From positions 930,001 through 994,000 of the forward strand of contig NZ_AP026910.1 of the NCBI RefSeq assembly GCF_026000575.1: a stretch of DNA of 64,000 nt, given 5' to 3'. The stretch comes from Rhodoluna sp. KAS3. GTDB taxonomy: Bacteria > Actinomycetota > Actinomycetes > Actinomycetales > Microbacteriaceae. The translations under genes were made by a program, and so were the position numbers. The notes beneath the pieces were generated by a model that was given only the letters and a program-made list of their open reading frames with translations, had not been told where the DNA came from and searched no databases. This document shows, in pieces, positions 14,110 to 16,221 of the stretch (positions within the stretch are counted from its first letter, which is position 1; each line of letters opens with the position of its first letter).

Positions 14110-15042
14110 ATGGCGATTTACAACAACATCACCGAGGTAGTCGGAAACACCCCACTAGTTCGCATCAACCGCATTATTGAAGGCCCTGCCGAAGTTCTAG
14201 CCAAGCTAGAGTTCTACAACCCATCAGCAACGGTTAAGGACCGCATCGGTATCGCCATGGTTGATGCCGCAGAAAAGTCAGGTGCACTAAAGCCTGGTGG
14301 CTCAATCGTTGAGGCAACCTCTGGAAACACCGGAATTGCCCTGGCCATGGTTGGTGCTGCGCGCGGCTACAAGGTAATCCTGACCATGCCTGACTCAATG
14401 AGCAAGGAGCGCCGCACTCTATTGCGTGCCTATGGCGCAGAGCTAGTTCTTACCCCAGCCGCTGAGGGTATGCGCGGTGCCGTTGCTAAGGCAGAGGAAA
14501 TCGGTAACACCCAGGGTGCAGTTCAGGTTCGCCAGTTTGCTAACCCAGCAAACCCAGAGATCCACCGCAACACCACCGCTCAGGAAATCTGGCGCGACAC
14601 CGATGGCCAGGTTGCCGCAATTGTTGCCGGAATCGGAACCGGTGGAACCATTACCGGTGTTGGCCAGGCCCTAAAGGCGCTGAACCCAGACATCAAGATC
14701 TTTGCAGTTGAGCCAGAGGCTTCACCGATTCTTAACGGTGGAACCCCAGCAGGCCACCCAATCCAGGGAATCGGCGCCAACTTTATTCCAGAGATTCTCG
14801 ACACCACCATCTACGACGAAGTTCTTGATGCCCCTACCGAAGAGGCAATCAAGTGGTCACGCCGTTTGGGTGCCGAAGAGGGTATCCTCGGTGGAATCTC
14901 ATCTGGAGCAGCTATCTGGGGCGCATCAAAGATTGCGGCTCGTCCAGAATTTGCCGGCAAGAAGATTGTCGTAATCATCCCGTCATTCGGTGAGCGCTAC
15001 CTATCAACAGTTCTTTACAAGGACCTTCAGGACCTAGACTAA
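14110..15042 (+). CDS. cysK: Cysteine synthase A (O-acetylserine sulfhydrylase)
   Basis: CysK makes cysteine from O-acetylserine and sulfide. The 310-residue PLP enzyme has the Schiff-base Lys at about residue 43 ([15 protein letters not shown]), the substrate loop [14 protein letters not shown], and the phosphate-binding [15 protein letters not shown] 14110 follows AAGGA with correct spacing and matches the normal family start ([17 protein letters not shown]). The open frame extending upstream has no supported start. cysE follows after eight bases, so substrate supply and use are on one transcript. Confidence 0.95.
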
Positions 15043-15050
15043 AAGGTACT

Positions 15051-15557
15051 TTGATACGTTTTCGCGAAGACATTAGAACAGGCATCGAGCGCGACCCAGC
15101 AACTTATGGCGCGCTCGAGCTTGTTTTAACCTCACCCGGTCTCCACGCTCTTTGGCAGCACCGGATTAACCACGCTCTATACAAGAGTGGCTTTCGCGTA
15201 CTTTCAAGAGTCCTTGCTACCGGAACCAGATTCTGGACCGGAGTTGAGATTCACCCGGGCGCCACGGTTGGCCGCAGAGTCTTTATCGACCACGGTATGG
15301 GCGTTGTTATTGGTGAAACCGCGATTATTGGCGACGACGTACTGATTTACCACGGCGTGACCCTTGGTGGCCGTGAGAACATCACAGCAAAACGCCACCC
15401 GACCATTGGCAACAACGTTGTCATCGGAGCGGGTGCCATTGTTCTTGGCAACATCACCATCGGCGATGGCTCATCGATTGGTGCCGGAACCATCGTTACC
15501 AAGGACTTGCCGGCCAACTCGGTTGTAGTTGGTCCGCAAATGCGCACCATCAAGTAG
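15051..15557 (+). CDS. cysE: Serine O-acetyltransferase (short form)
   Basis: CysE acetylates serine with acetyl-CoA to give O-acetylserine for CysK. The 168-residue protein is a left-handed beta-helix acyltransferase. Hexapeptide repeats run from [20 protein letters not shown] to the end, with catalytic His in [14 protein letters not shown]. It lacks the long N-terminal helical domain of the E. coli enzyme, as many actinobacterial and Gram-positive versions do. Translation starts at TTG 15051, right after AAAGG; no better in-frame start is present. It is coupled to cysK with an eight-base gap. Confidence 0.92.
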
Positions 15558-15609: not shown

Positions 15610-15661
15610 TTGACTGAACCTCGGATAGAGGTACCCTTCTTACGTAACCCTAAGAAGGAGG
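15610..15661 (+). promoter_or_regulatory. Promoter and strong SD for the Cys-rich micropeptide
   Basis: TTGACT (15610-15615), 16 bases, TACCCT (15632-15637) form a sigma70-type promoter about 50 bases after cysE. AAGGAGG (15655-15661) is a near-perfect Shine-Dalgarno five bases before the ATG at 15667, stronger than most SD sites in this window. It indicates that the short ORF is translated. Confidence 0.6.
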
Positions 15662-15666
15662 AACGG

Positions 15667-15720
15667 ATGATTAATATTTCTGATGGCTGCTGTGGTGGCG
15701 GTTGCACCTGCAGCAAGTAA
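15667..15720 (+). CDS. 17-residue cysteine-rich micropeptide, function unknown
   Basis: The ORF encodes MINISDGCCGGGCTCSK: four cysteines in the last ten residues (CC-GGG-C-T-C) after a short acidic start. It has its own likely promoter, a near-perfect SD five bases before the ATG, and a perfect 13-bp hairpin ten bases after the stop. The three features make a compact transcript of about 120 bases. It lies just downstream of cysK-cysE on the same strand, with no gene on that strand after the hairpin, so it is not an attenuator leader for a downstream gene. A metal- or thiol-binding peptide, a peptide precursor, or a cysteine-sensing leader separated from its target are all possible. I know no described family that fits. 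Confidence 0.6.
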   Translation: MINISDGCCGGGCTCSK

Positions 15721-15729
15721 GCCAAACAA

Positions 15730-15763
15730 AGAAAATCCTCGACTGTAAAATCGAGGATTTTCT
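15730..15763. terminator. Perfect-stem bidirectional terminator after the micropeptide
   Basis: AGAAAATCCTCGA (15730-15742) and TCGAGGATTTTCT (15751-15763) form a perfect 13-bp stem with an eight-base loop. AT-rich outer arms supply the U-run in both directions. It serves the micropeptide on the plus strand and the DUF1761 unit on the minus strand. Confidence 0.85.
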
Positions 15764-15795: not shown

Positions 15796-16221
15796 CTAGA
15801 GCCAGGCGCCGATGATTAGGCCCATAACCGCGAGTGAAACGATGTCTTGGCCGACCTCAATGATCCAGACACCAAAACCGTGGCGGGCAAACAGTCGGTG
15901 TGAAAGAGATGATGCCGCGGCAATACCGGCACCCAAGAGAGCACCCGCAGCCAGACCCTGCCAAGCACCAAAGCTTGGGTCAGCCAAACTTCCAACCTCG
16001 ATGACAATTGCCACAGTTGCAGCCTGCGCGATGGTTGCCAAGTACGTCGAACCAAACAAGACAGCCACGCTGGTGCCACCCGGATCAGTTGTAGGCTCGT
16101 TGCCGTTTAGCTTCCACCAAATTGGATAAAAAGTCTTTGGGCCAAACCAAACACCGCCGACAACAAAACCGGCGATTGAAGCGACCAATACGGCCAACCA
16201 GTTAATCTGTGAAAAATCCAT
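15796..16221 (-). CDS. DUF1761-family membrane protein
   Basis: The 141-residue protein has four predicted membrane helices: residues 8-26, 50-75, 85-105 and 120-140. The opening NWLAVLVASIAGFVVGGVWFGP with the following FYPIWWKLNG is the DUF1761 pattern, a family without known function. It begins directly after the stop of the DUF1801 gene (coordinates abut at 16221/16222), so the two are coupled. The terminator at 15730-15763 ends the unit. Confidence 0.75.
   Translation of the reverse strand: MDFSQINWLAVLVASIAGFVVGGVWFGPKTFYPIWWKLNGNEPTTDPGGTSVAVLFGSTYLATIAQAATVAIVIEVGSLADPSFGAWQGLAAGALLGAGIAAASSLSHRLFARHGFGVWIIEVGQDIVSLAVMGLIIGAWL

Follow-up and report, generated by a model that had tools for sequence, protein, structure and literature searches.

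The window, i.e., the whole stretch of 64,000 nucleotides analyzed here, holds a genuine-looking small gene, whose product of 17 residues is probably a minimal metallothionein descended from a copper-related lineage. Its four cysteines, arranged as CC-GG-x-C-x-C, would make up a single metal-thiolate site or, if several peptides associate, a small cluster, and the peptide would act as a cytoplasmic buffer for a soft metal. Judging from its descent, this metal is most likely Cu(I), since relatives with 6 to 11 cysteines are located directly behind the gene of a CsoR-type repressor in 12 of the 38 carriers of the family and are followed in several of them by a gene for a DUF305 protein or a multicopper oxidase. 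In the window genome (1.34 Mb, one contig, in which the peptide had one match at E up to 10), where this repressor is absent, the peptide gene would operate independently, flanked by a promoter and a terminator of its own. From the sequence evidence, we infer that the gene is transcribed and translated and that its product binds metal, presumably copper, and buffers it; of the two arrangements, the operon seems to be the ancestral one, from which the stand-alone form arose.

Architecture of the peptide gene

The whole peptide gene is self-contained and occupies positions 15610–15763. On the plus strand, it begins with a promoter-like element (15610–15637; TTGACT at 15610–15615 and TACCCT at 15632–15637), the 16-bp spacer of which harbors the inverted repeat ACCTC-GGATA-GAGGT (15618–15632). 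A second inverted repeat, CCTTCTTA-N8-TAAGAAGG (15635–15658), overlaps the −10 hexamer and abuts the Shine–Dalgarno (SD) sequence AGGAGG (15656–15661). The ATG at 15667, 5 nt downstream of the latter, opens a metallothionein-like frame of 17 codons with four cysteines, MINISDGCCGGGCTCSK, which ends with TAA (15667–15720). The frame is followed by a hairpin of 13 pairs with a loop of 8 (15730–15763; arms 15730–15742 and 15751–15763). The promoter, SD, ORF and hairpin claimed in the preliminary description were all read directly; the promoter matches 8 of 12 consensus positions and is missing from the output of the promoter scan, with its cut at 9 of 12. The terminator scan called the hairpin on the minus strand only. 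In the plus-strand reading, the U-rich stretch falls inside the 3′ arm, so the hairpin is most plausibly a common terminator, probably serving both this gene and the DUF1761 gene that converges on it (15796–16221, minus strand), the marker of this neighborhood.

Upstream of the unit and outside of it, on the plus strand, reside cysK (PALP family, 14110–15042) and a gene of a cysE-like acyltransferase with hexapeptide repeats (15051–15557), both gene names being given by eye. Mycobacteria possess polycysteine leader ORFs for cysteine attenuation, which are, like the window ORF, very short and cysteine-rich. The four cysteine codons near cysK–cysE and the strong hairpin just past the stop codon are compatible with such a regulatory short ORF, on which ribosomes would stall at the cysteine codons under a shortage of cysteine, regulating the RNA or a downstream gene, and the folding of the RNA, which is better than that of shuffles (z −4.1, a value that includes the terminator hairpin), points the same way, as does the group of relatives with a same-strand, cdd-like gene next to the peptide. 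Still, a cysteine-responsive leader is improbable here: the window gene is SD-led, the hairpin follows it and the next gene, DUF1761, is convergent, in agreement with the earlier claim that the unit is not an attenuator leader. A close same-strand gene behind the peptide was encountered only in the cdd group (4 of 38 carriers), where the peptide gene continues directly into the next gene, and in the csoR/DUF305 operons; in the stand-alone groups located elsewhere, what comes after the peptide gene is a convergent gene or a hairpin. Moreover, 12 of the 38 carriers have the peptide behind csoR, and the positions and numbers of cysteines vary between the groups, while amino acids are conserved inside the groups. 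At the window gene, no Rfam family reached its gathering score.

One SD-led ORF of this kind (ATG start, 12–60 aa, four cysteines within 10 residues, SD of at least 5/6) was seen in the window, whereas 60 dinucleotide shuffles of it gave 0.067 on average; without the SD, the shuffle mean of the same criterion rose to 3.1. Chance is thus ruled out by the SD condition and, above all, by conservation in relatives. Between G000 and G009, the promoter, SD, ORF and hairpin are all kept. It is the peptide that is conserved, and the sequence after the stop codon varies between the groups, so the finding that would have spoken against the preliminary description, i.e., lack of conservation or conservation of the hairpin only, did not emerge.

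Distribution, genomic sites and cysteine content of the family

The family is carried by 36 of the 67 genomes of the genus and by two of the three genomes of a second genus (G260, G314). An ATG with an SD of at least 5/6 precedes the peptide in 37 of 37 tabulated carriers and also in the 38th (G012). With a threshold of E up to 10, the first search, in 198 relatives, yielded matches in 15 genomes; the genus accounts for ten of these, the window genome among them. At the same threshold, the 67 genus genomes were searched with three profiles, which matched 19 (4-Cys profile), 31 (two-row 6-Cys profile) and 32 (12-row profile) genomes; many weak profile matches at this level are chance. Membership was decided by reading the start, SD and cysteine core, not by E-value alone, and G015, G029 and G054 were kept despite their weak E-values. 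Reading the candidates (ATG, SD of at least 5/6, short cysteine-rich ORF) left 35 genus genomes; the version of G012, which is located behind csoR-A and comprises 62 aa with 11 cysteines, brings the genus total to 36.

In the family sample of 398 genomes, convincing matches were confined to the genus and to G260 and G314, and the order sample of 327 genomes gave a single match at E up to 0.01 (L296), judged to be chance and rejected as having no SD-led start of its own. A frame without a start codon (G003) was dropped. The strongest uncounted weak match, G527 (E 8.6e-4), has a frame of 53 residues that lacks an SD; L009, L010, L011, L012, L015 and L016 (of which L009 and L012 were read) and other weak matches were not counted either. 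Among the most complete genus genomes (at least 90% complete, at most 5% contaminated), members were found in 14 of 22. Profile searches together with a scan of the csoR-A loci revealed no member in 31 of the 67 genus genomes, including 8 of these 22, so the gene looks dispensable.

The carriers differ in the genomic place of the gene. It is located directly behind csoR-A in 12 of 38 (G012, G023, G024, G026, G040, G042, G044, G053, G058, G062, G260 and G314); in G035, a contig end cuts off the upstream side and a DUF305 gene is next. Other sites include those between cysE and DUF1761 (four carriers, the window included), beside a desaturase gene near cysE (four), before a cdd-like gene (four), beside an MFS-like gene (five), beside the gene of a 192-aa nitroreductase-like protein (three) and behind a ychF-like gene (two), with other places in three. 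Pfam was applied to the neighbors cysK (PALP), cysE (hexapeptide), DUF1761, DUF1801, desaturase, csoR-A, DUF305, one ATPase, cstR and one multicopper oxidase; all other neighbor names are by eye. The gene order in G026 (ychF, csoR-A, peptide, DUF305, AHSA1, DUF1761) and that at the window locus (peptide, DUF1761, DUF1801, desaturase, AHSA1, ychF) suggest that both loci stem from one ancestral neighborhood.

Genes of cysteine synthesis are not the usual neighbors, being near in 8 of the 38 carriers. Accordingly, the role proposed in the preliminary description stands in its thiol or metal part, but a functional link to cysteine synthesis is not supported, the cysE/DUF1761/desaturase neighborhood being confined to these eight; metal was the better half of the guess and cysteine synthesis the weaker. 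The shortness and cysteine richness of the peptide could also befit a secreted signal or a peptide that is modified after its synthesis. This is very improbable, given that the peptide has no leader region and that the stand-alone neighborhoods, with their genes named mostly by eye, have no modifying enzyme or exporter in common.

The peptides are 14–62 aa long and contain 4, 5, 6, 8, 9, 11 or 12 cysteines; among the 37 tabulated, 18 have four and 15 have six. The range extends from the shortest, MSDGCCGGSCNCKK (14 aa, four cysteines), via MTENSGCNCGGNCQCKAKSEGSSCNC (six cysteines) to versions of 44 aa with 12 cysteines and 62 aa with 11. The cysteines are spaced as CxC, CC and CxCGxxCxC, with linkers of Gly, Asn, Lys and Ser; the csoR-linked peptides, with 6 to 11 cysteines, mostly follow the metallothionein-like pattern CxCGxxCxC...CNC. 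Hence, the family has the small size and the clustered CxC and CC cysteines of the metallothionein class, but four is a small number of cysteines for a metallothionein cluster, which counts against such an assignment of the window peptide. Cysteine numbers also differ at one and the same site. Beside the desaturase gene, G030 has a 6-Cys peptide, MTEISMTDGCNCGGGCQCKGASNSGTCNC, whereas G028, G006 and G018 have 4-Cys ones (MTEISMTDGCCGGSCQCKK in G028), and the promoters of G030 and G028 are near-identical; at the site before the cdd-like gene, the 8-Cys peptide of G039 contrasts with the 4-Cys peptides of G019, G033 and G008. These same-site pairs tie the CC-GG-x-C-x-C form, that of the window, to the CxCGxxCxC form.

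Purifying selection was evident in eight groups of alignable length comprising 27 of the 38 carriers (pooled pN/pS 0.31, group dN/dS from 0.11 to 0.45), pairs inside one group being non-independent. Outside these groups were left G033 (with a peptide identical to that of G019), G046, G030, G039, G053, G058, G023, G012, G054, G029 and G015. In 222 within-group comparisons of cysteine codons, 144 were identical, 78 synonymous and none lost, a result valid within groups, from which the same-site versions with another cysteine number (G030, G039, G046) had been excluded beforehand, a choice that biases the count of lost cysteines downward. In the window’s own group (G000, G047, G009), selection is weaker than in the pooled data: its dN/dS is 0.43, and the differences, nearly all from G009, number 8 synonymous and 16 nonsynonymous. 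This weakness, the absence of the gene from many genus genomes, the place of the window peptide among the shortest versions and its lack of an operator are what one would expect of a chance ORF or a decaying remnant. Such an origin is nevertheless hardly probable in view of the shuffle control, the selection across the groups and the promoter, SD, ORF and hairpin retained from G000 to G009.

The repressor csoR-A and the regulation of stand-alone genes

The copper link of the family comes from its csoR-linked members. Next behind the peptide, five of these 12 carriers have the gene of a DUF305 protein of the CopM type and one has that of a multicopper oxidase; Pfam confirmed Trns_repr_metal, DUF305 and Cu-oxidase_3 in one example each. 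CopM, a protein with DUF305 domains, is described as copper-induced and copper-binding (PMC4335983). The repressor itself, csoR-A, belongs to the CsoR/RcnR family (PF02583, 73.1 bits vs. a cut-off of 22.8), with C33, H58 and H62 invariant in 11 of 11 aligned rows. In the copper sensor of M. tuberculosis, the ligands are given as Cys36, His61 and Cys65 (PMC4235346). The ligand spacing of csoR-A is the same, but its set is C-H-H and not the C-H-C of the CsoR copper sensor proper, so induction by nickel, cobalt or zinc is conceivable. The CsoR of Thermus has a ligand set similar to C-H-H.

A CCCC/GGGG inverted repeat is present near the start in 15 of 15 upstream regions of csoR-A; among those studied further, 9 of 10 contain TAC-X9-GTA and 8 of 10 have the −35 and −10 hexamers exactly 16 bp apart around the operator. 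The operator consensus of CsoR is reported to be TAC-X9-GTA, with G-tracts (PMC3902906). Of the peptide-linked csoR-A promoters read, eight of nine have TACCCCCTAGGGGTA or a close variant upstream and that of G023 has an altered left end; the promoters of G024, G058 and G314 fall outside this count. The −10 hexamer ends 6 nt before the start codon of csoR-A in L117, L133, L142, L148, L151, L152, L154 and L172, so the operon mRNA is probably leaderless.

The surroundings of csoR-A were surveyed in the best 80 of 191 candidate loci, in named genomes. Same-strand genes of P-type ATPases were of the CPH type, the motif of copper pumps, at 12 of these 80 loci and of the CPC type at one; DUF305 genes were found at five, and the peptide at 10 by the scan, or 11 including G023. 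At the other 62 of the 80, P-type ATPase genes on the same strand and DUF305 genes are both lacking (eight of them have an opposite-strand CPC-type ATPase), so csoR-A is not always part of a copper operon; at the six of these loci that were listed, the neighbors look unrelated. Outside the two genera, csoR-A commonly occurs without such a peptide. At L143, L149, L150 and L173, the P-type ATPase next to csoR-A has a cysteine-rich N-terminal stretch, CxCDHNPGGECHCPPNECKCD, which may represent a metal-binding domain fused to the pump.

Four cysteines suit one tetrahedral Zn(II). Together with the C-H-H ligands of csoR-A and the lack of a CsoR-type operator at the window gene, this lends some weight to a zinc buffer or a general soft-metal or thiol buffer not specific for copper, possibly serving zinc supply or redox protection. 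Such a role is a real but distinctly less likely possibility, since relatives of the peptide adjoin genes for DUF305 or a multicopper oxidase and csoR-A elsewhere accompanies same-strand CPH-type ATPases (12 of the best 80 loci).

No CsoR-type operator was found in the window with two mismatches allowed, and the window genome has no csoR-A: its sole PF02583 protein is CstR-like (Cys, Cys, no His) and is encoded beside rhodanese-like genes. In many genus genomes (L171:4763–5020 and relatives), cstR-like genes stand with rhodanese-like and CoA-disulfide-reductase-like genes and the operator-like TACCCCCTAGGGTA. Control of the stand-alone genes by CstR was rejected, since TACCCCCTAGGGTA, the element of the cstR-like promoters, is missing from the window gene; a MerR-type regulator was discounted on account of the 16-bp spacer. 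Near cstR, five loci (L156, L157, L161, L165, L167) contain a cysteine-rich ORF of 39 aa, MCxPAxCxxCxKxTWxGCGxHIEEALEGVP...C.

The copZ-like and CPC-type copA-like genes of the window genome, along with the cstR-like one, leave some room for a copper- or persulfide-related partner peptide, e.g., one delivering Cu(I) to CopA, instead of a store. This is rather unlikely: a CopZ-like chaperone is already there, and no partner is common to the stand-alone neighborhoods.

The −35 hexamer of the window gene with the upstream flank, TGTGAGTC[CG]C, is shared with the diverged relative G009 (TTGACA-16-TACTCT). The ACCTC-N5-GAGGT of the window promoter, which is not TAC-X9-GTA, occupies the place of the CsoR-type operator of the csoR-linked relatives. 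The aligned stand-alone promoters (13 sequences, picked by best score or by eye and non-independent) have 16-bp spacers as well. In the MFS group, the spacer contains TAC-X9-GTA in three genes and TAA-X9-GTA in two, a possible remnant of the operator. These spacer features fit, but do not prove, descent from a CsoR-controlled promoter. In G009 (L021), a repeat abuts the SD at the same place as in the window, with arms that differ and still pair; arm length of this upstream repeat exceeded that of shuffles (P at most 0.02) in 3 of 18 cases tested (G000, G009, G060), so no general claim is made for it.

Relation to described metallothioneins

As the preliminary description anticipated, no matching family turned up in the libraries searched. 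Nine of the 14 peptides scanned matched Pfam metallothionein models, all below the curated cut-offs (best E 0.015–0.45, 11–16 bits vs. cut-offs of 23–25); five gave no match, including both four-Cys peptides, and the 17-mer was too short to scan. None of 10 composition-preserving shuffles matched anything. The recurrent weak matches were to PF02067, PF05522 and PF00131, with PF01439 and PF02068 as second matches, and share with the family the CxCGxxCxC spacing. The present peptides are bacterial, 14–62 aa long and below every curated cut-off, so the likeness may be convergent; a prokaryotic metallothionein model was listed for none of the 14. Two unrelated weak matches, to a CD4 tail and a CXCXC repeat, also appeared among the family peptides. 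NCBIfam (0 of 7 peptides), PHROGs (0 of 4), PDB sequences (0 of 2) and plasmids (0 for the 44-mer) gave no matches. By its anatomy, then, the family would work like a metallothionein, with no model of a described family passed at its cut-off. A metallothionein-like tail, ...HGGCNCGGSCNCK, was also seen in an inorganic-pyrophosphatase-like protein (named by eye) of G027 (L075:1498–2037).

Among the described systems that come close is MymT of Mycobacterium, a small, cysteine-rich and originally unannotated copper metallothionein of the RicR regulon, which is under a CsoR paralogue and includes a multicopper oxidase and the cysteine synthase gene cysK2 (PMC10470581); its mass is given as 4.9 kDa (PMC7558416). 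The resemblance thus concerns a small cysteine-rich actinobacterial protein, a CsoR paralogue, a multicopper oxidase and a cysteine synthase; unlike MymT, the window gene has no CsoR-type operator. With SmtA, for which a zinc-finger fold is described (PMC7558416), the peptide would share the role of a bacterial metallothionein. A search of titles and abstracts, outside bioRxiv and most subscription papers, found no description of this family and nothing that pairs Rhodoluna with a metallothionein.

Taken as a whole, the findings may be read, tentatively and with somewhat less than even confidence, as a genus-wide, gene-encoded metallothionein family that has shrunk to a single four-Cys unit of 14–21 residues, lost its metal-sensing repressor on several occasions and changed its place as an independent mini-gene of approximately 155 bp (promoter, SD, peptide and terminator), occupying at least seven sites in streamlined actinobacteria of fresh water. 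If so, the gene encoding MSDGCCGGSCNCKK would rank with the smallest metallothionein genes that are functional. Bacterial metallothioneins are called rare in a review (PMC7558416); the present family is so short that routine annotation misses it, hence metal-buffering peptides may be overlooked. The versions with eight, six and four cysteines at the same sites would represent a natural experiment on the fewest cysteines that make a useful metal buffer, and the comparison of csoR-linked and stand-alone versions would offer a test of how a metal-controlled gene gains independence from its repressor.
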